Shown here piece by piece: positions 1 to 26,212 of a DNA stretch of 47,805 nt. Every line of letters starts with the position of its first letter. Position 1 is the stretch's first letter. Origin of the DNA: Deltaproteobacteria bacterium (GTDB lineage: Bacteria > Desulfobacterota > JAJRXV01); the NCBI GenBank assembly GCA_024275075.1, contig JAJRZU010000012.1, positions 1 to 47,805 on the forward strand, read 5' to 3'. A model generated the notes under the pieces. The model was given only the letters and a program-made list of their open reading frames with translations. It was not told the DNA's origin and searched no databases. Made by a program: the position numbers and the translations under genes.

Positions 1-45
1 AAACAGGCGGCGAGGGAGTACCTGCTCGCCAAGGACTTGATCTGA
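1..45 (+). CDS. C-terminal end of an upstream gene (partial)
   Basis: Frame 1 is open from the first base and encodes 14 residues ending AREYLLAKDLI before TGA at 43-45. The next gene starts one base after this stop, so this is very likely the last part of the preceding gene in the same operon. The residues are helical and alanine/leucine rich, as at the end of a TPR-like or other helical protein, but the fragment is too short to name. Confidence 0.6.
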   Translation, partial: KQAAREYLLAKDLI

Positions 46-46
46 C

Positions 47-838
47 ATGAAAAAATTTAAATTATACATAATGGCCCTCATGCTGCTGACCGGTTGTCAC
101 AGCGGGCAGATAGCCGCGGACAAAGGCGCCGCAAAGCCGCCGGCCGCCGCGGAGATATCTGGAATCATCACCAGCGATACGACGCTGAGCGGTGATGTAC
201 TGGTAGCCGGTGACGTATACGTCCCTGAGGGCGTGACGCTCACCATTTTGCCCGGTACGAGGCTCACTGTGCGGATGAGCGAAAGCACCAAGGTGCTCCC
301 GACATACCTTTCACCGAAAACCGAGCTTCTCGTAAGGGGGCGCATCATCGCGAAGGGCGCGAAGGATGACAGGATCGTCTTTCTATCCGACCAGGAGAGT
401 GCTGGGATGAAGGATTATGAGGGGATAATACTCCTTGAGAGCGAGGAAGCCGTTTTCGAGAACTGCACATTCAGTAACGCCTATGCCGCGGTCACGGCGT
501 TCAGATCGACATTAACGCTATCCTCGTGCGAATTCGTCAACTGCTTCTACGCCATCTCCGCGAACGGCTCTGTGGTCACGGTAACAGGGAATGTCGTGAG
601 AGACTGCGACAAGGGGATGTACTTTCACAAGGGAACAACCGGCAGCGTCACCGGCAGCGGGTTCACCAACTGCCTGGAAGACGGGATATTTATCGACAAT
701 ACGAGCTCCGTTGAGATAACGGGTAATTCATTCACAGACAATCTTTGGGGCATCTCGACGATATCGTATGCAGGCGACTTCACCAAAAACAATGAATTTA
801 AGAATAATATCAAAGATGTAAGGCGGTTAAACTATTGA
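47..838 (+). CDS. NosD-like parallel beta-helix lipoprotein
   Basis: A 263-residue secreted protein with a lipoprotein signal (MKK start, hydrophobic core, lipobox LLTGC with Cys17). The mature part opens with the beta-helix entry motif 'VPEGVTLTILPGTRL', followed by rungs rich in N, G, V and S such as 'ENCTFSNAYAAV' and 'ITGNSFTDNLWGI'. This fits the NosD/CASH right-handed parallel beta-helix family. It is the first of three such proteins in this operon. It starts one base after the preceding stop and its own stop overlaps the next start, so translation is probably coupled. No catalytic residues are recognisable. A structural or ligand-presenting role at the outer or inner membrane is inference. 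Confidence 0.85.
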   Translation: MKKFKLYIMALMLLTGCHSGQIAADKGAAKPPAAAEISGIITSDTTLSGDVLVAGDVYVPEGVTLTILPGTRLTVRMSESTKVLPTYLSPKTELLVRGRIIAKGAKDDRIVFLSDQESAGMKDYEGIILLESEEAVFENCTFSNAYAAVTAFRSTLTLSSCEFVNCFYAISANGSVVTVTGNVVRDCDKGMYFHKGTTGSVTGSGFTNCLEDGIFIDNTSSVEITGNSFTDNLWGISTISYAGDFTKNNEFKNNIKDVRRLNY

Positions 839-1944
839 TGACGCGCTTTTTCATTTACATAATATCATTCAGCATGTTACTGATCATACTCACCGCGTCA
901 AGCGCGCCGTGCGAAGAATACAGCCGCGTGTACGGTAACGAGACGATATTCAAGGACACCACGTGGTCAGGTAAGGTGCTGATACAGGACATTGTGACGG
1001 TATTCGCGGACGTGACGTTGACTATTGAACCAGGAACGGTTATCATGTTTGAGAAGCGCGACACCAACGGTGACGGTTTCGGTGAGAACGAGATATACAT
1101 TCAAGGCGAGGTGATCGCGATAGGTACGCGGGCGGCGCCGATAATTTTCACGTCCGCCGAGAAGGTAAAGCGCCCGGGAGACTGGGGGGCTATCAACATG
1201 ATGATCTCCGAGGATAAGCGAAACATCTTCTCAAACTGCGTACTGGAATACTCATATCGCGGGTTCCACGCTCATTTCTCCGCGATGAACCTCGTTGACT
1301 GCGAGATAAAGAATAACTTTCTGGCGGTACAGTTTCAGGACTCGAAGGTGACTATAAAGGGCTGCAACATCCACGATAACAATCAGGGGATGCAGTTTCG
1401 CGACTCGACCCTTTTGATGGAGGGCACAAACCTTACCAATAACAATATCGGTATCCGGTGCGTTTACAGCGAGGTCGATTTCAGGGGTAATGAGATATCC
1501 GGCTCTTCTATGACGGGTTTTCGGGCAAGGGGCTCTACTGTGGAGATCACCGGCGGCAAGGTGGAAGGCTGCCGGTCGGGCATCACCGCTCAGGATTCAT
1601 CGATCACCGTAAAGGGTTCGATGATACTGAACAACATGGAGGACGGCCTGTCGCTACACAATTCAGACACGAAAATATCTGGTAATATCATCATGTTAAA
1701 CGGTGACGACGGGATTTTCCTTGAAAATACCACCGCGGTGATTAATAATAACAACATATTCAATAACGCGAAGTACAACGTCTCGCTCGAGCAGCCGGGC
1801 GGCGTTGACGCAAAAAACAACTACTGGGGAACTGACGACCCCGACAAACTAGACGAATTCAACTTTGACAAAAAAGACTCTGGCTCCCTTGGTGAGATTG
1901 ACATCGGCGGCTACTTTGATACAGAAATACATTTAACGGAATAA
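838..1944 (+). CDS. NosD-like secreted parallel beta-helix protein
   Basis: About 368 residues with an N-terminal signal peptide (hydrophobic stretch to about residue 23, then SSAPCEE). The entry motif 'VTLTIEPGTVIMFEKRD' is followed by about ten beta-helix rungs with repeated N-N-x-I, G-N-x-I and 'DSTLLMEG' patterns, ending in 'NNYWGTDDPDKLDE', a common end motif of this family. I chose the ATG at 838-840 because it overlaps the previous stop as TGATG; an in-frame TTG at 835 would add one residue. It is longer than its two beta-helix neighbours and lacks a lipobox, so it is probably released or held by partners. Confidence 0.85.
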   Translation: MTRFFIYIISFSMLLIILTASSAPCEEYSRVYGNETIFKDTTWSGKVLIQDIVTVFADVTLTIEPGTVIMFEKRDTNGDGFGENEIYIQGEVIAIGTRAAPIIFTSAEKVKRPGDWGAINMMISEDKRNIFSNCVLEYSYRGFHAHFSAMNLVDCEIKNNFLAVQFQDSKVTIKGCNIHDNNQGMQFRDSTLLMEGTNLTNNNIGIRCVYSEVDFRGNEISGSSMTGFRARGSTVEITGGKVEGCRSGITAQDSSITVKGSMILNNMEDGLSLHNSDTKISGNIIMLNGDDGIFLENTTAVINNNNIFNNAKYNVSLEQPGGVDAKNNYWGTDDPDKLDEFNFDKKDSGSLGEIDIGGYFDTEIHLTE

Positions 1945-1954
1945 GGACGGAAAA

Positions 1955-2854
1955 TTGAAAAAATTACTGGTTTATCTTATCGCATTACTTTTGACGGCGG
2001 CGCTCTTCTCATGCAAGCAGGGGGCGAAGGATGGCAGGGTGTACAAAATCGCGTACATGATCTGCAACAATACCCGGGAGACGAACGAGCGGTTTGTTCC
2101 GCTCACAAACTACCTGACCGAGAAGACCGGTTACAAATTCGAGCTGTATACCGTCAATACGCAGGACTTTGTTTCTGAGTACGAGAAGAAGAAATTCGAC
2201 TTCACGCACACGAACTCGTACCTGTTTTACCTGCTCAAGAAGACGAAGGGCGCGAAATATCTCTGCACAGAGAAACGCGGCGCCTACGGTACCCGCACAA
2301 AGGGCGTTATTTTCACCCTGAAATCGAGCGGAATAGACAGCATCGCGGCTATCAAGGGGAAGAAGGTGCTCTTTGGCCCCGTCTTCGCGCCATACGCCTT
2401 CCTTGCACAATACGATCTTTTGGTGAATGACGGGGTTGACCCCGAAGAGGATATCATCTACGCGATACCCTGGGGCTCGTTCAAGCACCAGAAGGTGGTC
2501 TATGGCGTGCTGTACAATGATTTCGATGTCGGCGCCGTCTCCTCATTGGATCTTGAGATGATGGCGAAGGAGGGCAAGATAAACATCAACGATTTCAACA
2601 TCATCGCCGAGAGCCCGCTACTGCCGTACTGCACTTTCGGTTATGCGGACGGGGTACCCGCCAAGGTGGTGAAGAGCGTGAACGACGCGCTCCTTGGCCT
2701 CACCGAAAACGACACCGCGGCGGTCGGCAATGAGACTCTGGCGATATTCAAGCGCGCTTTCATAGACGGTTATGAAGTGGTGGATGAGAGCGAGTATGAC
2801 ATCATCGACCGATACGCGAAGACCGCGAAGCTACCGCCGTACGAAGAATTTTAA
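1955..2854 (+). CDS. PhnD-type oxyanion ABC substrate-binding lipoprotein
   Basis: A 299-residue periplasmic binding protein with lipobox LFSC (Cys20). The body follows the PhnD/phosphonate-binding fold: 'YKIAYMICNNTRETNERF' at the start, 'FDFTHTNSYLFYLL', 'GVIFTLKSSGIDSIAAIKGK' for the second lobe, then 'VVYGVLYNDFDVGAVSS'. The start is TTG at 1955, with the ribosome site AAGGACGG just upstream and no better in-frame start. No ABC permease or ATPase gene lies nearby, so this is an orphan binding protein. Known relatives bind phosphate, phosphite, phosphonate or other oxyanions; the ligand here cannot be read from sequence. The YedE-type transporter in the operon makes a selenium or sulfur oxyanion worth considering (inference). 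Confidence 0.8.
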   Translation: MKKLLVYLIALLLTAALFSCKQGAKDGRVYKIAYMICNNTRETNERFVPLTNYLTEKTGYKFELYTVNTQDFVSEYEKKKFDFTHTNSYLFYLLKKTKGAKYLCTEKRGAYGTRTKGVIFTLKSSGIDSIAAIKGKKVLFGPVFAPYAFLAQYDLLVNDGVDPEEDIIYAIPWGSFKHQKVVYGVLYNDFDVGAVSSLDLEMMAKEGKININDFNIIAESPLLPYCTFGYADGVPAKVVKSVNDALLGLTENDTAAVGNETLAIFKRAFIDGYEVVDESEYDIIDRYAKTAKLPPYEEF

Positions 2855-2863
2855 GGGCATGAT

Positions 2864-3385
2864 ATGTTTGAGAAAATAAACTATGTGTCGCTGGTCATAC
2901 TCACCGGAATACTCGCCTTTTTCCTATACAGCGGCGGGAACGCTAACTGGAAGGAAGCGCCGGGCAGGGATTTCTACGCGATGGCGGCTCAGAGCAATAT
3001 TTCGGCAAAGGAGAAGGAAGCGAAGATAAAGAAGCGCTATGGCGGCATCGAGGAGATGATCGGCGCCGGCCAGCTCGAAAAAGCGCTCCTCACGCTCAAG
3101 CAGATGGAAACGGGCTACAAGAAGGACGCGCACCTTTATTTCCTGCAAGGTCAGATTTACGCAAAGATGAAGTTATATAAAGAATCGATAACGAATTTTT
3201 TTAAAGCGGTCAAGCTTGACCCTGACTATGTAGATGAGGGTTGCTCGCTTTACAAGGGCACTTTGATCAAAGAGGTCACCCTGGACGCGATGGATTATTA
3301 TAAAGGCAAAAGCGACGCGGGGAGCAAGTCCGCGAAGAAGCTGGTATTCGCGATGCAGCGCAGATTGGCAGGGAGCTGCGAATGA
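2864..3385 (+). CDS. Membrane-anchored TPR protein
   Basis: A 173-residue protein with one N-terminal membrane segment (residues about 6-24, 'VSLVILTGILAFFLYSGG') and no lipobox. Residues about 62-125 form tetratricopeptide-like helices: 'LEKALLTLKQMETGYKKDA' then 'AHLYFLQGQIYAKMKLYKES' and 'FFKAVKLDPDYVDEG'. It probably sits on the periplasmic side of the inner membrane and bridges partners. It starts 9 bases after the binding-protein gene and its stop overlaps the transporter start (ATGA at 3382-3385), which ties it to the transporter. Its exact role is unknown. Confidence 0.75.
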   Translation: MFEKINYVSLVILTGILAFFLYSGGNANWKEAPGRDFYAMAAQSNISAKEKEAKIKKRYGGIEEMIGAGQLEKALLTLKQMETGYKKDAHLYFLQGQIYAKMKLYKESITNFFKAVKLDPDYVDEGCSLYKGTLIKEVTLDAMDYYKGKSDAGSKSAKKLVFAMQRRLAGSCE

Positions 3386-4443
3386 AAAAGAGATTCAGCC
3401 AGAGTTCCATAGTGATCTTCACCGGTGCGCTCCTGGGCGTTATCTCCATCGTGCTCGTCTATTACGGTAACCCGAAGAACTCCGGAATCTGCGTGTCATG
3501 CTTCATCGAAAACATCGCCGGCGCACTGGGGCTGCACCCGAACCCGCGCCTGCAATATCTGCGCCCCGAGCTGCTCGGGTTCCTGCTCGGCGCTTCGATA
3601 AGCGCGCTTTTCGGCGGCGATTTCAAGGCGCGCGCTACGAACGCGCCGCTCGTTCCTTTTATCACCGGCGCTCTGCTCATCGTCGGTTCCGCTGTATTCA
3701 TCGGGTGCCCGATTAAGCTGTTCATACGATTTTCCGCGGGTGACCTGACGTCAATCGCCGGTATCGCCGGTCTGATCGCCGGTGTCTATATCGGTATCAA
3801 GTACCTGCAAAACGGCTTCACTTTCGGCGACGCTAAGGACTCACCGAACTTCTTTGCGTGGCTGCTACCGGCGGCGGTGATCATCCTCATCGTCTTTTTG
3901 TTCTACGAACCGAATTTTATATTCTTCAGCAAAAAAGGGTCGGCGACGATGCACGCACCGAAACTCATATCACTTGGCGCGGGCATTTTGTTAGGGGTCT
4001 TCGCCCAGCGCTCGAGGTTCTGCATAACCGGCAGCATAAGGGACACAATCCTCATGCGAAGCATAAAAGGCGGAACAGGGCTCATCGCGTTAATCGGATT
4101 CGCGATACTATTCAACGTTATTTTCGGTTATTTCAACCTTGGTATGAATGGTCAGCAGAGCTCGCACCTTGACCACCTCTGGAGCTTCCTTGGGATGGCG
4201 CTGGTCGGTATCGGGTCGGTCATGATAAACGGGTGTCCGTTCCGGCAGATCATACGCTCTGGCGAGGGCGACATAGACGCGGTGATGGCTGTCTTGGGGA
4301 TGGTAGCCGGCGGAGCGTTTGTGCAGACGTTTAACATCGCGAGTACCACCCGGGGCGTTACCTTCGCCGGCAAGGTCGCGATCATTACCGGGCTTATCTT
4401 TGTCACGGCATTAGGGCTCTCTTCACGGGATGAGGACATTTAA
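3382..4443 (+). CDS. yedE: YedE/YeeE-family membrane transporter, putative selenium transporter
   Basis: A 353-residue polytopic membrane protein with about ten membrane segments in two homologous halves. The halves carry cysteine motifs typical of YeeE/YedE transporters: 'SGICVSCFIENIAGALGL' and 'FIGCPIKLF' in the first, and 'QRSRFCITGSIRD' and 'NGCPFRQIIRSGEGD' in the second. Family members import thiosulfate through conserved Cys residues (YeeE). The motif set here looks more like the subfamily linked by comparative genomics to selenium metabolism. I recognise that subfamily from memory, and its substrate is not settled. Its start overlaps the TPR gene stop, with GGGAG as ribosome site. 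Confidence 0.78.
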   Translation: MKKRFSQSSIVIFTGALLGVISIVLVYYGNPKNSGICVSCFIENIAGALGLHPNPRLQYLRPELLGFLLGASISALFGGDFKARATNAPLVPFITGALLIVGSAVFIGCPIKLFIRFSAGDLTSIAGIAGLIAGVYIGIKYLQNGFTFGDAKDSPNFFAWLLPAAVIILIVFLFYEPNFIFFSKKGSATMHAPKLISLGAGILLGVFAQRSRFCITGSIRDTILMRSIKGGTGLIALIGFAILFNVIFGYFNLGMNGQQSSHLDHLWSFLGMALVGIGSVMINGCPFRQIIRSGEGDIDAVMAVLGMVAGGAFVQTFNIASTTRGVTFAGKVAIITGLIFVTALGLSSRDEDI

Positions 4444-4445
4444 CT

Positions 4446-5258
4446 ATGCGGATATTCATTAAGGCAGCGTTGCCGATATTAATTATTATGTTCTTCACAT
4501 CGATCCCTGGCGCGAAGGATTATGATTTTTACTATGAGGGACAGGCATCGCTGACGAAAGACACCGAGTTTTTCGGCGCCGTTTACATTAAGGAGAAGCT
4601 GCGGGTTCCTAAGGGGGTGACGCTTACCATCAGAGCTGGTACGGTCATCAGGTTCGGACATCCGGGGCTGAGCGACGACGGTAACGTCGATTCCTCGATC
4701 ATCGTTGAGGGGAGGATATCCGCTGTCGGCACCAGGGCCGCGCCGATAGTATTCACCAGCGCTCAAGCCAGGCAGAAGAGCGCATTCGGTGAGATCTACC
4801 TTAGTGAGGCAAAGGACTCTACCTTCGAGTTCTGCAATTTCCTTTATTCGCACTGGGGGCTGCATGTCCATGAAAGCAACGTGACTGTGAGAAACTGCCT
4901 GTTCAAAGAGACATTCGGCGGGATCCGGTTCAAAGGCGACACTGTGACCGCTATAAATAACGAGTTCGTCAACAGTGATGTATCATTCCGGTTCTGGCAG
5001 GCGTCACCGGTTATCGTGGATAACAGGTTCGTTGATGTCACCACCGCGATATTTGCGCGGGAACAGGTGAAGGCGCCTGTGATCACCGGCAACACTTTTC
5101 GCGGTACAAAGGATTATTATATTAAATTAGGTGAACTGCAAGAAGACGATATTACTCTCACAGGCAGCGATTTCGGAACTACAGACAAAAAAGAGATAAG
5201 CGCCAAGATCTTCGACAAAGAGGATGAAGACTACATCGGCAGGGTGATCATCAAGTAA
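4446..5258 (+). CDS. NosD-like secreted parallel beta-helix protein, last gene of the operon
   Basis: A 270-residue protein with a cleavable-looking signal peptide (residues 1-22, ending SIPGA). It has the same entry motif as the two upstream proteins ('VPKGVTLTIRAGTVIRFG') and rungs such as 'NVTVRNCLFKETFGGIRF' and 'PVITGNTFRGTKDYYI'. It has fewer rungs than the 835-1944 protein and no lipobox. It begins two bases after the transporter stop, with GAGG about 12 bases upstream of the ATG. A binding protein, a TPR protein, a transporter and three beta-helix proteins in one operon suggest one envelope assembly, but I know of no described system with exactly this set. Confidence 0.82.
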   Translation: MRIFIKAALPILIIMFFTSIPGAKDYDFYYEGQASLTKDTEFFGAVYIKEKLRVPKGVTLTIRAGTVIRFGHPGLSDDGNVDSSIIVEGRISAVGTRAAPIVFTSAQARQKSAFGEIYLSEAKDSTFEFCNFLYSHWGLHVHESNVTVRNCLFKETFGGIRFKGDTVTAINNEFVNSDVSFRFWQASPVIVDNRFVDVTTAIFAREQVKAPVITGNTFRGTKDYYIKLGELQEDDITLTGSDFGTTDKKEISAKIFDKEDEDYIGRVIIK

Positions 5259-5346: not shown

Positions 5347-5373
5347 TTAGCACTCAGTGCCGTCGAGTGCTAA
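5347..5373 (+). promoter_or_regulatory. CIRCE operator (HrcA binding site)
   Basis: A perfect inverted repeat TTAGCACTC-N9-GAGTGCTAA matches the CIRCE consensus in both arms and spacer length. It lies between the promoter and groES, so HrcA should repress the operon and release it on heat shock. hrcA itself is not in the window. Confidence 0.97.
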
Positions 5374-8314: not shown

Positions 8315-10861
8315 CTACTTCGTGTACATGTGACACTGCTCGCAAAACTGGGTATAATCAACATCAAGGTTGCCGCGCGGATGATTTATGTGACCGCCCC
8401 CTAAAGTCAGCACGGGCTCTCCCCTGTCATTCTCAAATAATGCGTCAGGGTTGGCTACATTGGCGGGAGGGGCATCTAAAATGTAAGTCGCGCTGTTTGT
8501 CGAGGCGTCATGCACCTGGTGACAACTGTCGCAACTCATCTCACCAGGAGTACCCTTTGCGTTGTTTGCCGGCGGGTATGTCGTATAACCACCAAGCGCC
8601 GTCGGTGCATTTATGTCAAGGTAAGCCGAGTTTGTATCTATCTGATTACCCGTTCTTGAAACAAAGTTAGCGGTCAGCGGGTGAGTGTTCGCAGGTCCGT
8701 CGTGAGTATGACACCCTTCGCAGAAATAGGAATATGGATCGTTTGCGGTAACAGTTTCACCTTCGGCATAAGCGAAGAGCAGCAGCTTGGAGCCATTTAT
8801 ATTTTTGTCAGGTTCTAACTCATGGCACGATTCACAGACAAGGTGCTGTCCTTCGGTCGCGGCGGTCGTGTTATCTGACAAGAGCGCATCCCACCGGGAC
8901 CAGCCGCCGCCCGGCCACGCGGTAGTAGTCGGGTTGAATGTGCCTTCCGCACCGGTCGTGGAACCTGTTGTCCAATCTATGTTGGCTGCGGTGACATCTC
9001 CTAAGAAATGAGTACCAAGGCCGTCTTTCTGGAATTCCGTCTCGCTTGCCCATTCATCAGTAGCGTTATGTGTCGGGGTAAGGATATTCGGGTCTATGTT
9101 CGCACCGGTTCGTAACCTGTAATGACATTGTTCGCATGTCCTGCTTGCGTTAGCGGCAAGCCTGTCTGTAGCCATTACATCAGAACGGCCGTTATCCGCC
9201 GGCTCCCAGTCAGGATCAAGGCCGACGCCGTTTGCGGTCAACCAGTTATGAGCGGCTGTCGCGTTATGGCAATCCGCGCATTCAAGCATATCGTCACTAT
9301 CACCGATCCTACCATCATCAGCGCCTGTACCGGGAATGTCGACTCCCGCAAGGTTAGGCATATTCCTGGCGGGGTTACCGCCAGAGATGGGATGATGCTC
9401 GGCCAAAGCGGAAGTGTGGCATCTTGCGCATATATCTATATGGTTGTTCCTTAATAGAAATTCGCCGGCGCCCGCGATAACATCAATATCCACTCTTGAT
9501 TTTTGAAGAGCTCTTGCCGGATGTGGTATATGGCATGACTCACAGATCGGCGCGTTACCAACGGAAGCCGCGAGATAACTGCTTTTAGGCCAATCCGCAG
9601 GGAAAGCGTCAACTGCGTCATTGACAATAGTAGCGTCATCTATCGGGTGGGAATAAGGTGTCGCACCCGGGTTTGGCCAATGCGTACCAGCATATGCGGT
9701 CGTATCGTTTTGAGTGAAGTTACCGGCGGTTGACCACGCTGCCGGATTCGCCCAGGCAGCCGCCGCGTCTGAGTTGTGGTGGCACGACTCACAAAGGAAG
9801 TTTGCCGCGTAGTTATCCCCGTTATAAGCCTGCGGGTTGATAGCCATAGTACCCGGAGACTGAGTTACCGCAAGCAGGTTACCGGCAGGAAGTTGAATCG
9901 GGGTTGAAGGGTCGGTATCATCCTGAACGCCGTGAACCGCGTGGCATGATACACATACGACGCCTTCTCCGGCGGCATTCCCGACACCTGGCAATACAGC
10001 GGCATTCGAAGCGCTATGCCTGCCCAAATTCCAGAGGCCGGTGTTATCGCCATAGGTTACACCGCCATCAGTAGTCCCGGCCGCACCATCCGCTCCATTA
10101 TCATCAAACTCTCTAAAGAATTCGAAGTTAAAAGTTATTATAGGTGAGTCATTGCCATCAATATCGCCAGAGATATTGGTGCCGACTGGGTGTGAGCCTA
10201 AGTTGTTTAGCCCAAAGCCAGCCCATGTACCCAATGTAACACTATTGCCATAAGTCCATGTAGCGCCATCAGAGGTATATCTCGTATTGTGGCAGTTGAT
10301 ACATAAGTCCCTGATATTCCTCCTTAAAAACGGTCTGTTAGTTGAGTTGTCATGTACATTATGACAAGTCGTGCACTGGATCATGTTCGTAACCGCGGCT
10401 TTTGTGTCCTCGTTGTCACCGGCAGGCGCATAAGGCAATGTTAAGGCAGCGGCGTCAACTTCATCGGCACCGGCGCTGCCGACACCATCGGTGACATACC
10501 CAGAGACGTTAAGCCCATGCGCTCCGTTAGTAGATGGGAACACGTTCTGCCCGGCATAGCCTGCCTGCGGGACAGAGCCGGTTGTTGAGTTACCATAAAC
10601 ACCACCGGTGCTATGGCACGCAAAACACAACCTGCCGACAATACCATCGACGTTTATAGCGCCGCCGCCCATAGGCTGCGCCCACAGTCGCTCAGAGCCC
10701 GGCGATTTGTGCGGGATATGGCATACCGAACAGGTGCCCTGCGCAGGTTCAAGCTGAGTAATATCGTGAGGCGTCCCCACAACGCTTGCGGCGAATACCG
10801 CATTTGTTACTACTAATATCATTAATAAAAGCAACGACAAAATACAACACATCTTCTTCAT
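8315..10861 (-). CDS. Secreted 14-heme cytochrome c (copy 1)
   Basis: 848 residues with a signal peptide (about residues 1-24, ending VFAA). I count 14 CXXCH motifs: CSVCH, CFACH, CTTCH, CINCH, CVSCH, CESCH, CESCH, CARCH, CADCH, CEQCH, CESCH, CEGCH, CDSCH, CEQCH. There is no lipobox or membrane anchor after the signal, so it is periplasmic, surface-bound or extracellular. Many free His in NxHP and GxHP contexts ('SHPVGTN', 'HPIDDA', 'NTHPLT') are likely distal ligands. It is a very close paralogue of the 19872-22400 protein: the same 14 positions, long identical blocks and the same ending 'QFCEQCHMYTK'. This copy ends with TAG and the other with TAA. The ribosome site is AGGGGGG. Confidence 0.95.
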   Translation of the reverse strand: MKKMCCILSLLLLMILVVTNAVFAASVVGTPHDITQLEPAQGTCSVCHIPHKSPGSERLWAQPMGGGAINVDGIVGRLCFACHSTGGVYGNSTTGSVPQAGYAGQNVFPSTNGAHGLNVSGYVTDGVGSAGADEVDAAALTLPYAPAGDNEDTKAAVTNMIQCTTCHNVHDNSTNRPFLRRNIRDLCINCHNTRYTSDGATWTYGNSVTLGTWAGFGLNNLGSHPVGTNISGDIDGNDSPIITFNFEFFREFDDNGADGAAGTTDGGVTYGDNTGLWNLGRHSASNAAVLPGVGNAAGEGVVCVSCHAVHGVQDDTDPSTPIQLPAGNLLAVTQSPGTMAINPQAYNGDNYAANFLCESCHHNSDAAAAWANPAAWSTAGNFTQNDTTAYAGTHWPNPGATPYSHPIDDATIVNDAVDAFPADWPKSSYLAASVGNAPICESCHIPHPARALQKSRVDIDVIAGAGEFLLRNNHIDICARCHTSALAEHHPISGGNPARNMPNLAGVDIPGTGADDGRIGDSDDMLECADCHNATAAHNWLTANGVGLDPDWEPADNGRSDVMATDRLAANASRTCEQCHYRLRTGANIDPNILTPTHNATDEWASETEFQKDGLGTHFLGDVTAANIDWTTGSTTGAEGTFNPTTTAWPGGGWSRWDALLSDNTTAATEGQHLVCESCHELEPDKNINGSKLLLFAYAEGETVTANDPYSYFCEGCHTHDGPANTHPLTANFVSRTGNQIDTNSAYLDINAPTALGGYTTYPPANNAKGTPGEMSCDSCHQVHDASTNSATYILDAPPANVANPDALFENDRGEPVLTLGGGHINHPRGNLDVDYTQFCEQCHMYTK

Positions 10862-19871: not shown

Positions 19872-22400
19872 TTATTTTGTGTACATATGGCACTGCTCGC
19901 AGAATTGTGTATAATCTGCATCTGCATTACCTCGTGGGTGACTAACGTGTCCACCACCTAAAGTAAGTACAGGCTCGCCACGTGTGGTTTCAAATAATGT
20001 ATCAGGGTTGCCAACGTTAGCTTCTGGTGCGTCCAGAATATAAGTCGCACTGTTTGTAGCAGAGTCATGAACCTGATGACAGCTGTCACAGCTCATCTCA
20101 CCTGGTGTAGCCTTGGCGTTGTTAGCCGGTGGATATGTTGAATATCCACCAACTGCTGTCGGTGCGGCTGCATCGAGGTATGGAGATAACGTATCTAATG
20201 CGTTACCTGTCCTTGAAACTATATCACCTGTCAATGGGTGAGTGTTTGCAGGACCGTTAGATGTATGGCAACCTTCGCAGAAGAAGTTAGTTGCCTGATT
20301 AGCTGTTGCTGTAGTGCCTTCAGCAAACGCCATTAATAAGAGCTTAGAACCAGCTGCGTTCTTGTCAGGCTCTAACTCATGACATGACTCACATACGAGA
20401 TGCTGACCTTCTGTAGCGGCTGTTGTGTTATCTGAGCCTAATGCATCCCATCTTGACCAACCACCTGCAGGCCATGCTGTGGTAGTAGCGTTAAATGTAC
20501 CTTCAGCGCCGTTTGTAGAACCTGTAGTCCAGTCAATATTAGCGGCTGTAACATCACCTAAGAAGTGAGTACCAACGCCAGTTTTCTGGAATTCGTTCTC
20601 AGTGCCCCACTCATCTGCTGCAGCGTGTGTAGGTGTCAATACTGTAGTATCAATAGCGCCTGTTCTTAATCTGTAGTGACACTCTTCACAAGTCCTACTT
20701 GCGTTAGCAACGAGTCTGTCGTTAGCCATTACATCGGCAGGATCACGACCGTTGTCTGCTGGCTGCCAGTCAGGATCAAGACCAACACCGCCGGCTGTAT
20801 TCCAGTTATGAGCGCCTGAACCGTTATGGCAGTCAGCACATTCAAGAACCGTGTTACCATCACCGATTACGCCGTCATCAGCTCCTGAGCCAGGAACCGC
20901 GCCTATGTTAGGCATATCATTAGCGGGTACAGTACCCGTAATCGGGTGGTGATTTGCGAATGAAGAGCCGTGGCAATTAGCACAGATACCCACCTGAGAA
21001 TCTCTCAAGAGGAACTGACCTGCGTTAGCAACGTTATTTACGTCAGCCCTTGACTTAAGAAGAGCTCTTGCCGGGTGCGGCACGTGGCATGACTCACAGA
21101 TAACAGCCTGGTTTCCACCAAGACCTGCAACTGAACTTACCGGCCATATTGCAGGAATACCGTCGCAAGCGTCGTTGTTTATTGCAGCATCGTCAATTGG
21201 ATGCGTAAACGGGGTACCGCCCGGGTTCGGGAAGTCAGTACCAGCATAATCAACGTTATCGTTAGGTGTAAAGTTACCAGCAGTAGCCCATGCAGCAGCG
21301 TTAGCCCATGCACCAGCAGCGTCAGAGTTATGGTGACACTTCTCGCAAAGTGTGTTAGCGGCATCGCCATCACCATTATAAGCCTGCGGGTCAATAGCTA
21401 TGTTACCTGGAGACTGAATAGTTCCAAGTAAGTTACCTGAAGGCAGTTGAATTGGTGTTGAAGGATCGGTATCGTCCTGAACGCCGTGAATAGCGTGGCA
21501 TGATACACAGACAACGCCTTCACCAGCTGCATTACCAACGCCAGGAACAACAGCGGTAGTAGTAGCTGAGTGACGGCCTAAGTTCCATACGCCGGTACCA
21601 TCGGTATATGTGAAACCACCGTCAATCGTTCCATCTGGATCATCAAAAGGCTGGAACCATTCGAAGTTGAAAGTGATGATCGGAGAACCGCCACCGGAAA
21701 CGTCGCCGGTTACGTTAGTACCAACAGGGTGAGAACCCAGGTTAGTCCTGCCAGCGCCAGACCATGTGGTCAATGCAACAGCATCACCATAAGTCCATGT
21801 AGCGCCATCAGATGTAAATCTTGTATTATGGCAGTTGATACACAGGTCTCTGATATTCCTTCTTAAGAAAGGCCTGTTACTAGTATTATCATGGACATTA
21901 TGACAAGATGTACACTGGATCATGTTAGTAACACCAGCTTTTGAATCTTCATTGTCGCCTGCTGCGGTATAAGGTAATGTCAATGCAGCGCCGTCAACTT
22001 CGTCAACACCGGCAGCGCCTACACCATCAGTAACATAACCGCTGATATTAAGACCATGCGCGCTATTAACTGAAGGGAATACAAACTGACCAGCAAGACC
22101 AGCCAATGGAACAGAGCCAGTTGATTGGTTACCATAAACACCACCAACATTATGGCAGGCAAAACACAAACGGCCTACGACGCCGTCGATGTTAACAGCG
22201 CCACCACCCATTGGTGAAGCCCACAATCGCTCAGTACCTGGCGATTTGTGCGGGATATGGCATACGGAACAAGTACCTTGAGCAGGTGCCTGCTGTGTAA
22301 TGTCGTGAGGAGTACCCACAACGCTTGCGGCAAATGCAACGCCTACCGCTAACATGGTTGCTAAAACAACCATCAATAAAATTAAACCAGCTTTTCTCAT
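19872..22400 (-). CDS. Secreted 14-heme cytochrome c (copy 2)
   Basis: 842 residues with a signal peptide (about 1-25, ending AFAA). The 14 heme motifs are CSVCH, CFACH, CTSCH, CINCH, CVSCH, CEKCH, CESCH, CANCH, CADCH, CEECH, CESCH, CEGCH, CDSCH, CEQCH, collinear with copy 1. By eye most residues match copy 1; gaps are few and lie in loops. Differences at DNA level are mostly in third positions, and this copy favours A/T-ending codons (GCT, GCA, GTA). The ribosome site AGGAGG is stronger than that of copy 1, so this may be the main expressed form. It lies between an NHL propeller gene and a TlpA-like gene. Confidence 0.95.
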   Translation of the reverse strand: MRKAGLILLMVVLATMLAVGVAFAASVVGTPHDITQQAPAQGTCSVCHIPHKSPGTERLWASPMGGGAVNIDGVVGRLCFACHNVGGVYGNQSTGSVPLAGLAGQFVFPSVNSAHGLNISGYVTDGVGAAGVDEVDGAALTLPYTAAGDNEDSKAGVTNMIQCTSCHNVHDNTSNRPFLRRNIRDLCINCHNTRFTSDGATWTYGDAVALTTWSGAGRTNLGSHPVGTNVTGDVSGGGSPIITFNFEWFQPFDDPDGTIDGGFTYTDGTGVWNLGRHSATTTAVVPGVGNAAGEGVVCVSCHAIHGVQDDTDPSTPIQLPSGNLLGTIQSPGNIAIDPQAYNGDGDAANTLCEKCHHNSDAAGAWANAAAWATAGNFTPNDNVDYAGTDFPNPGGTPFTHPIDDAAINNDACDGIPAIWPVSSVAGLGGNQAVICESCHVPHPARALLKSRADVNNVANAGQFLLRDSQVGICANCHGSSFANHHPITGTVPANDMPNIGAVPGSGADDGVIGDGNTVLECADCHNGSGAHNWNTAGGVGLDPDWQPADNGRDPADVMANDRLVANASRTCEECHYRLRTGAIDTTVLTPTHAAADEWGTENEFQKTGVGTHFLGDVTAANIDWTTGSTNGAEGTFNATTTAWPAGGWSRWDALGSDNTTAATEGQHLVCESCHELEPDKNAAGSKLLLMAFAEGTTATANQATNFFCEGCHTSNGPANTHPLTGDIVSRTGNALDTLSPYLDAAAPTAVGGYSTYPPANNAKATPGEMSCDSCHQVHDSATNSATYILDAPEANVGNPDTLFETTRGEPVLTLGGGHVSHPRGNADADYTQFCEQCHMYTK

Positions 22401-24649: not shown

Positions 24650-26212
24650 CTATTTTAACTCTAAAACTATTATTTGCGAAGTATAATGAGCCTGCTTTAC
24701 TGCGCCATTATATATCGCTATAGCAAACTTGTACTTGTTTGGAGGCAAAAAGATAATATCATCTGAGCGATTGGTGCTAAGTTTGCGTGAAAATTCCACT
24801 GACCACTCACGCTTTAAATAAATGCCGCCGGCTTTTACGTCAGCACTGCTCTTCGTCGGCTTACTTGGCAGATAAGAGGGGACCTTCGCGCCCTTAAATT
24901 TGATCGGCAGCTGGATCTTCCACGGAAGCTTACCGGCATCCGGCTTCTTCCTTATCCAGACGATCTTGCCGTTTTGTGACGGGTAAGCATTCGCATGGGA
25001 CAGCGGTGAACTGCTGATCCTCATCTTACCGTCATAAGCATACCTTGACCCCTTTAACCTTGCCGCCCGCCAATGCCAGTAGTCCGCCGTCACTTCTTCC
25101 CCGCTCCTCATGCATGAATCATCAATATCGTTCATGTAAAATAACAATGCTATTGAATCCTCTAAATCCTTACCAACACGATACTCTTTCTTCTTGCTGT
25201 CCCAGAGTAATGTCTCATGGGTATCATTCTTGACGCTATCTTGCCACTGAACTAAAAAGAATATCCTGCCATTTGTATATGCCGCCTTTATACCAGCTTT
25301 TAACCTTCCCCCCGCTGCCGTCTCAAGTTCTAAAACAAGCGGCTTTGTTTTCTTCCAGATGGCATCACTCCTCTTACCATCAATCTTTGGGGCTTGCTTC
25401 ACCGAGATCTTTTGGGCTATTACCGTCAGCGCCTTCTTCTTTGGTGGCTCAGGCTCCTTCTTCAGTGGCTCAGGCTCCTTCTTCGGTGGCTCAGGCTCCT
25501 TCTTCGGTGGCTCAGGCTCCTTCTTCGGTGGCTCCTTCTTCACAACCATGGCCTTGGGGACTTTATCTTTATCTTTGAGCACCGGTTCTATCTCGACAGA
25601 ATAATCCAATACACCCTTACTCTTGACTGCCAACTTAACCACTTTCGGTTCTGGTTCTGGTTCTGGTTCTGGCTCTGGTTCTGGTTCTAATGGTTCGGGT
25701 TCTTCTATAGTCACCGGCTCGGGCTCGGGCTCGGGCGGCTTAACAAATTCCACCCTTTTCGGTCTTGCAAGCTTATATGACAGTTTCAACAATAATGTAT
25801 CATTTTTAAATGTACCGCTTATAGATTTTATTTTCAGGTCATCCTTCTTCATCTTCTTGATTATATTGTCCCTGGAAAAATCATTGGCTATCATGTACAA
25901 ATCATTTTTATACATGCTTATTGTCGGTGAGAGGACTTCCTTGTCTACCAGGACGAAGATTTTCAGCAGGATATGATCCTTGGATCTCCTTATCTCTATT
26001 TTTCTTACCGAAGAGTTGGCGTCTTTGAGCTCTTTCTCGATCTCATCCTGGTAAAAGTTTGTATCATCGGCGGCGATTTTAAAAAGGAGCGGTTTTGGCA
26101 GCTTGACGTTCACTTCATCATAATACAGATAAGCTGCGTTTGAAGTTTTGATTAAACAAGATAACAGAATTATAAATAAAAAGAGGTTTATAATAAAAAG
26201 ACGTTTTTTCAT
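24650..26212 (-). CDS. Secreted protein with proline-rich linker and ethylbenzene-dehydrogenase-type heme-binding domain
   Basis: 520 residues with a signal peptide (about 1-26, ending SNAA). The N-terminal domain (about 27-150) is unrecognised and beta-rich. It is followed by a PEPEP repeat (about 160-190), a short spacer, and a second low-complexity block of PPKKEPE heptads (about 225-260). The C-terminal domain (about 265-518) opens 'APKIDGKRSDAIWKKTKPL' and has 'IFFLVQWQDSVKNDTHET' and 'SIALLFYMNDIDDSC'. This matches the EB_dh / cytochrome c-552-type DOMON domain that holds heme b in molybdoenzyme gamma subunits. No molybdoenzyme lies here. The long linker would let the heme domain reach across the periplasm; this is inference. 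Confidence 0.78.
   Translation of the reverse strand: MKKRLFIINLFLFIILLSCLIKTSNAAYLYYDEVNVKLPKPLLFKIAADDTNFYQDEIEKELKDANSSVRKIEIRRSKDHILLKIFVLVDKEVLSPTISMYKNDLYMIANDFSRDNIIKKMKKDDLKIKSISGTFKNDTLLLKLSYKLARPKRVEFVKPPEPEPEPVTIEEPEPLEPEPEPEPEPEPEPKVVKLAVKSKGVLDYSVEIEPVLKDKDKVPKAMVVKKEPPKKEPEPPKKEPEPPKKEPEPLKKEPEPPKKKALTVIAQKISVKQAPKIDGKRSDAIWKKTKPLVLELETAAGGRLKAGIKAAYTNGRIFFLVQWQDSVKNDTHETLLWDSKKKEYRVGKDLEDSIALLFYMNDIDDSCMRSGEEVTADYWHWRAARLKGSRYAYDGKMRISSSPLSHANAYPSQNGKIVWIRKKPDAGKLPWKIQLPIKFKGAKVPSYLPSKPTKSSADVKAGGIYLKREWSVEFSRKLSTNRSDDIIFLPPNKYKFAIAIYNGAVKQAHYTSQIIVLELK
25437..25538 (-). repeat. 21-bp tandem repeat encoding PKKEPEP heptads
   Basis: About five units of 21 bases with core GGCTCAGGCTCC (+ strand reading) lie inside the 24650-26212 gene. 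Unit number may vary between strains. Confidence 0.85.
25645..25735 (-). repeat. 6-bp tandem repeat encoding PE dipeptides
   Basis: Repeated GGTTCT/GGCTCG units (+ strand reading) encode runs of Pro-Glu in the 24650-26212 protein. Contraction or expansion by whole units stays in frame. Confidence 0.8.

Follow-up and report, generated by a model that had tools for sequence, protein, structure and literature searches.

A conserved bacterial gene set linking a YedE-type channel to a predicted periplasmic cysteine carrier arm, with a putative sulfur- or selenium-type cargo

The cysteines C22, C91 and C293 of the thiosulfate transporter TsuA have been described as a relay (PMC11073785). The TIGR04112 (YedE) family of putative selenium transporters is reported almost only from organisms with SelD (PMC5322559); selenium transport has not been shown for this family, and knock-outs of YedE in M. 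maripaludis gave no clear selenium phenotype (PMC11097638). In the Sox system, SoxY carries sulfur on the cysteine of a C-terminal GGCGG motif (PMC6067878), and SoxY has been proposed as a donor to SoxT, which is YeeE-like (PMC11582611). Among binding proteins of the PhnD fold, AioX and ArrX are orphans with a signalling role, and AioX binds arsenite by means of a cysteine in its pocket (PMC5908839). Here we describe a locus that resembles each of these in part. It belongs to a gene set that is conserved but uncharacterised in bacteria, and our literature search found no paper either on this set or on GeoRSP, a radical-SAM system to which it is linked by co-occurrence.

The locus opens the window, by which we mean the whole 47,805-nucleotide stretch of DNA that was analysed, from a bacterium of the Desulfobacterota. 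Six open reading frames lie on the forward strand (47-838, 835-1944, 1955-2854, 2864-3385, 3382-4443 and 4446-5258), separated by gaps of -4, 10, 9, -4 and 2 nt. All are placed as in an initial annotation, which had described them as overlapping or nearly touching, and its family assignments hold: NosD/Beta_helix for genes 1, 2 and 6, Phosphonate-bd (144 bits) for gene 3, TPR for gene 4 and Sulf_transp for gene 5. The downstream boundary of the operon is clear: the next operon, groES-groEL, is preceded by a CIRCE operator of its own (5347-5373, forward strand, an exact match where none is expected by chance) and is outside the system. The same annotation had placed the operon at 1-5258; its six genes stand, but its start does not, as more genes lie upstream on another contig. 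Contig C85 and the window share their first base, which means that the window opens at the edge of a contig. Its initial 139 bases recur, identical and in reverse orientation, at the end of contig C92, and the operon therefore begins upstream of base 1. On the minus strand, C92 encodes in order an NtrC-type regulator, an EB_dh haem-type lipoprotein, a CarboxypepD_reg lipoprotein, a HEAT lipoprotein, a NosR-like 4Fe-4S membrane protein and a short OpuAC-like periplasmic protein, the body of which lies on that contig (L003:95-628, minus strand) and the 3' end of which would occupy bases 1-45 of the window (forward strand). This join is inferred from the 139-bp overlap. It has independent support, because the same upstream order, with NosR-like, OpuAC-like, beta-helix and PhnD-type genes in succession, recurs within single contigs of other organisms (e.g., L057, L064, L092).

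A scan of bacterial genomes with an alignment of the gene 3 lipoprotein recovered 146 relatives, of which 80 were kept; the relatives occur in Geobacter, Desulfuromonadales, Nitrospirota, Desulfobulbales and other groups. Clustering of the open reading frames over the loci yielded a core of lipoprotein, TPR protein, YedE and beta-helix genes, accompanied by CarboxypepD_reg and OpuAC-like genes. The lipoprotein and TPR genes are neighbours 58 times and the TPR and yedE genes 62 times. The genes are not scattered in relatives, an outcome that the initial annotation had named as one that would refute it, and the idea of a single transcription unit tying the orphan binding lipoprotein to YedE is supported. 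In L069, L071 and L088 these three genes stand without the remaining ones, an arrangement seen in some Geobacteraceae, and we therefore regard PhnD-TPR-YedE as the core of the system. The wider layouts are of three types. Type A, to which the window belongs, is marked by genes for NtrC, EB_dh, HEAT and NosR-like proteins, and in relatives yedE is followed by PqqD, GeoRSP radical-SAM, SPASM and TIGR01977 PLP-enzyme genes; type B combines a long beta-helix with ResB, an ArsP_1/SaoE-like or NicO permease, and GeoRSP genes; and type C, known from Desulfobulbales and Desulfobacterales, joins genes for lyases and a dehydrogenase to NicO or HupE-like ones. The TIGR01977 PLP enzyme is encoded in 12 of the 39 loci with full flanks, and a PF11823 Se/S carrier gene adjoins yedE in L096. 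Both the association with GeoRSP and the presence of metal permeases in sister operons became visible only through such comparison with relatives. As a separate observation, the operons of L106, L117 and L132 (Desulfobulbales), L096 and L099 encode two lyases of the aspartase superfamily, for which the second-best NCBIfam match, below its cut-off, is the coenzyme M enzyme XcbD; they also encode a Glu-dehydrogenase-like enzyme, a JAB protein and a ThiS/MoaD-like protein, and these lyase-type operons perhaps deal with a sulfur-containing or chelating small molecule.

The channel (353 aa; 3382-4443, forward strand), previously described only as a YedE-type transporter, can be assigned to the named family of putative selenium transporters TIGR04112 (394.9 bits, cut-off 200), whereas it scores just 33.9 and 33.8 bits against the TsuA/YeeE thiosulfate transporter models, with cut-offs of 645 and 400. 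Its alignment with S. thermophila TsuA/YeeE falls into two blocks whose order is swapped, and these place C214 (4021-4023), C285 (4234-4236) and C109 (3706-3708) onto C22, C91 and the outer relay cysteine C293 of the latter. The likeness to TsuA/YeeE with TsuB, known from S. thermophila and E. coli, thus lies in the three relay cysteines; the system differs in the swapped halves and in having an external carrier where a TsuB/TusA gene would be expected, none being found beside yedE. With canonical YedE it shares these three cysteines and the C37-x-x-C40 pair (3490-3501), and the latter, which falls within the signature given below, is like the other cysteines of the protein conserved in 98-100% of relatives. 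In addition, the TIGR01977 PLP enzyme is encoded near the system yedE in sister operons. However, the system copies form a clade of their own, set apart from canonical selenium YedE by a branch of length 1.03 with full support (100/100), and their signature reads GNPxNSGICVSCFxEN against GNPxNMGICVACFxRD in the canonical form. They have fixed lipoprotein and TPR partners, with no SelD or YedF gene beside them. Given the deep split and the different signature, their cargo may also differ.

The first of these partners is an orphan Phosphonate-bd (PF12974) lipoprotein of 299 aa with a TTG start (1955-2854, forward strand). Its AlphaFold model (pLDDT 95.4) has PtxB and ArrX as nearest folds, and its nearest solved relatives bind phosphite, phosphonate, arsenate or sulfate. 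The protein itself falls far below the cut-off of the phosphate/phosphite/phosphonate subfamily, and it matches neither the PhnD phosphonate binding protein (TIGR03431, 62 bits, cut-off 261) nor the putative selenate binding protein TIGR04553 (31 bits, cut-off 250). The initial annotation had remarked on the absence of an ABC permease, and this holds at the locus and, for PhnE, over the whole genome, where the best match reaches 27 of the required 216.7 bits. Five residues, Cys37, Cys226, His85, His178 and Asp191, are kept in 98-100% of 84 relatives, with Cys37 (YMxCN motif, codon 2063-2065) and Cys226 (PYCTF motif, codon 2630-2632) each present in 99%. When the lipoprotein is aligned with PtxB, its His178 and Asp191 fall on a His and an Asp there; going by the same alignment, the two cysteines may line the ligand cleft.

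The second partner is a TPR protein of 173 aa (2864-3385, forward strand), predicted to be anchored in the membrane by a helix at residues 2-26, followed by a linker and the TPR helices. At the opposite end, its AlphaFold model shows a free, unstructured C-terminal tail, the last codons of which (3371-3382) read G-S-C-E before the stop. The initial annotation had not remarked on this tail. The Gly and the penultimate Cys of its G-[G/S]-C-x-COOH ending are invariant in 40 aligned proteins, even though these are mostly just 20-30% identical to the copy in the window; one row of the alignment, L080, from a short contig, extends a few residues beyond the Cys. As the gene overlaps yedE, the tail might have been a by-product of the yedE ribosome site. 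For the Cys this can be rejected, since it persists in nine loci in which the yedE start lies over 10 nt downstream and since both of its codons are used (40 TGC, 24 TGT). It stays possible for the Gly residues, whose codons partly coincide with the yedE Shine-Dalgarno site in many loci, and their conservation is accordingly the weaker evidence. The arrangement recalls SoxYZ/SoxT, in that a carrier-type cysteine arm at a C terminus is encoded together with a YeeE-like channel. It differs from it in the TPR fold, the membrane anchor and the lack of sequence relation to SoxY, the TPR protein matching TPR-type families only; no other Sox genes were seen in the operon. The likeness to the SoxY arm is confined to the tail and would be one of function and not of homology.

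The three beta-helix proteins are related to one another over their N-terminal parts (pairwise E of 1e-14 to 1e-25). They comprise a lipoprotein of 263 aa (47-838, forward strand; NosD 56 bits, Beta_helix 56 bits), a protein of 369 aa (835-1944, forward strand; Beta_helix 72 bits) with a conserved HxH formed by H145 and H147, the second of which is present in 98% of 45 relatives, and a protein of 270 aa (4446-5258, forward strand; Beta_helix 35 bits) with an LHVH motif. The multi-part envelope structure that the initial annotation read from these three proteins is a putative one. We considered whether they represent NosD of nitrous oxide reductase and rejected this (TIGR04247, 28.8 bits, cut-off 300).

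Taken together, the gene set looks like a variant of YedE-type uptake with an unusual and well-conserved periplasmic carrier arm, for which the cargo is putative. The reading that we favour, to which we tentatively give somewhat less than an even chance, is that the core is an importer in which a sulfur- or selenium-type ligand is handed over from thiol to thiol until it reaches YedE. The PhnD-fold lipoprotein would capture the ligand, perhaps holding it by Cys37 and/or Cys226, and would load it onto the penultimate cysteine of the flexible TPR tail; this arm would then reach the periplasmic mouth of YedE, where C109, C285 and C214 would relay the cargo inward, by homology with TsuA. In the cytoplasm a PLP enzyme resembling cysteine desulfurases, such as that encoded next to YedE in sister operons, could take over. 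The NosR-like Fe-S and EB_dh haem proteins encoded upstream might conceivably bring electrons to the periplasm and so keep the thiols or the ligand reduced, and the beta-helix, CarboxypepD_reg, HEAT and OpuAC-like proteins might serve as partners on the envelope side. The fixed periplasmic partners of this YedE clade offer a testable route, namely a movable three-gene unit with named cysteines.

A stricter version, in which the lipoprotein takes up reduced or oxyanionic selenium, the TPR cysteine tail carries it covalently and the YedE clade imports it, we consider rather unlikely as a whole, although within the thiol hand-over reading selenium is favoured over other sulfur species by a factor of somewhat less than two. 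To our knowledge, an importer dedicated to selenium is yet to be proven in any organism; under the strict version the system would be the first that is specific for this element, and its periplasmic selenium relay would likewise be the first of its kind. The initial annotation, which had suggested uptake of a selenium or sulfur oxyanion, had held that a genome devoid of selenium or thiosulfate metabolism would speak against such a role. The genome does encode selD, with an in-frame TGA of the selenocysteine type, and this objection falls away, but selD proves uninformative as a selenium test: it is found in 72 of the 79 relatives and is as common without the system (64/71) as with it (47/50; p=0.52). 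Canonical YedE is found in none of the 8 system genomes against 28 of 71 others (p=0.024, uncorrected for kinship), which is only a hint toward selenium. Also in favour of selenium are the membership in TIGR04112, the TIGR01977 enzyme, the PF11823 carrier gene of L096 and the selenocysteine-type selD of this genome; against it, selD provides no test, the YedE clade is distinct and metal permeases occur in sister operons. Our confidence in both the hand-over and its selenium version reflects this balance.

These permeases lead to the strongest alternative, in which the system acquires or traffics nickel, cobalt or copper, the thiols and the HxH motifs binding a soft metal or its chelate and YedE moving a metal-thiolate or a counter-species. 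NicO, CbiM/NikR, HupE-like and ArsP_1/SaoE-like permeases are encoded in sister operons, and among the 39 loci with full flanks a metal-type permease is present in all 16 of the ResB type (type B); the NosD-type beta-helices carry a conserved HxH, and the Desulfobulbales/Desulfobacterales type, with two lyases, a dehydrogenase and an MFS transporter, might encode a small-molecule chelator. Against this, such a permease is missing from all 12 full loci of the NosR type (type A), to which the window belongs, YedE and its cysteines belong to a sulfur/selenium transporter family, and the solved proteins closest to the lipoprotein bind the ligands listed above. We therefore hold a metal cargo to be unlikely; should it prove correct, YedE-type channels would have been recruited beyond sulfur and selenium.

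Less probable still is a role of the lipoprotein in signalling, as an AioX/ArrX-like sensor whose partner would be the NtrC-type regulator encoded first in the operon. It shares with AioX and ArrX, which are among its nearest folds, the PhnD fold, the absence of an ABC permease and a conserved cysteine. Moreover, the two further PF12974 orphans of this genome (L008:1354-3721 and L010:1438-3693) adjoin, as read from sequence, a histidine kinase and a chemoreceptor, so the organism may use this fold for sensing. However, AioX and ArrX have a histidine kinase as partner, while the lipoprotein gene adjoins those for TPR protein and YedE, and no histidine kinase gene lies beside it in the operon or in the sister operons. 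The ResB-type and three-gene loci lack NtrC, and the lipoprotein gene stands next to TPR-YedE far more often than next to a regulator.

Under the preferred thiol hand-over reading, the whole gene set may belong to one system with the GeoRSP genes (TIGR04302-04304). A GeoRSP radical-SAM gene is present in 7 of the 79 relatives, all of them among the 8 that have this PhnD lipoprotein (Fisher p=2.8e-9; 4e-7 when counted by family). In relatives the two often share an operon, into which PqqD, the radical SAM and SPASM are frequently built. In the genome of the window they lie apart, with a radical-SAM gene of 468 bits (TIGR04303, cut-off 400) on contig C19, adjoined by a short open reading frame with likeness to PqqD. 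The gene set would thus provide partners for radical-SAM genes for which we found no assigned role. Some relatives lack GeoRSP altogether: GeoRSP genes are absent from seven system genomes whose loci are of type C, which makes GeoRSP a partner and not a part of the core. The TPR proteins of these genomes keep the same thiol tail, and a need for the tail as a GeoRSP substrate can accordingly be rejected. That the genes instead form envelope and redox machinery for a GeoRSP-modified peptide, with YedE and the lipoprotein supplying or recycling sulfur for the radical-SAM product, would accord with the co-occurrence and the shared operons, but is the least probable of the alternatives in view of those seven genomes with their unchanged tail, and no precursor peptide was recognised.

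Some further features of this genome may be recorded. On contig C174 (L143:6153-7163, minus strand), a SPASM-like gene, assigned by likeness, directly precedes a TIGR01977 PLP enzyme gene and is interrupted by an in-frame TAA, which could reflect either an error in sequencing or genuine damage to the gene; selenocysteine was considered and rejected here, as the stop is TAA and relatives do not have Cys at this site. Close to the GeoRSP radical-SAM gene on C19 lies a gene for a LarE-like ATP-dependent sulfur transferase (L138:8154-8966, forward strand). Farther along the window, on the reverse strand, two closely similar long multihaem cytochromes (8315-10861 and 19872-22400) enclose NHL-type and peptidyl-prolyl isomerase-like proteins, in what, as read from sequence, looks like an extracellular electron-transfer cluster; near them (24650-26212, reverse strand) lies a gene whose product combines a long Glu-Pro repeat with, after it, an apparent second EB_dh-type domain.
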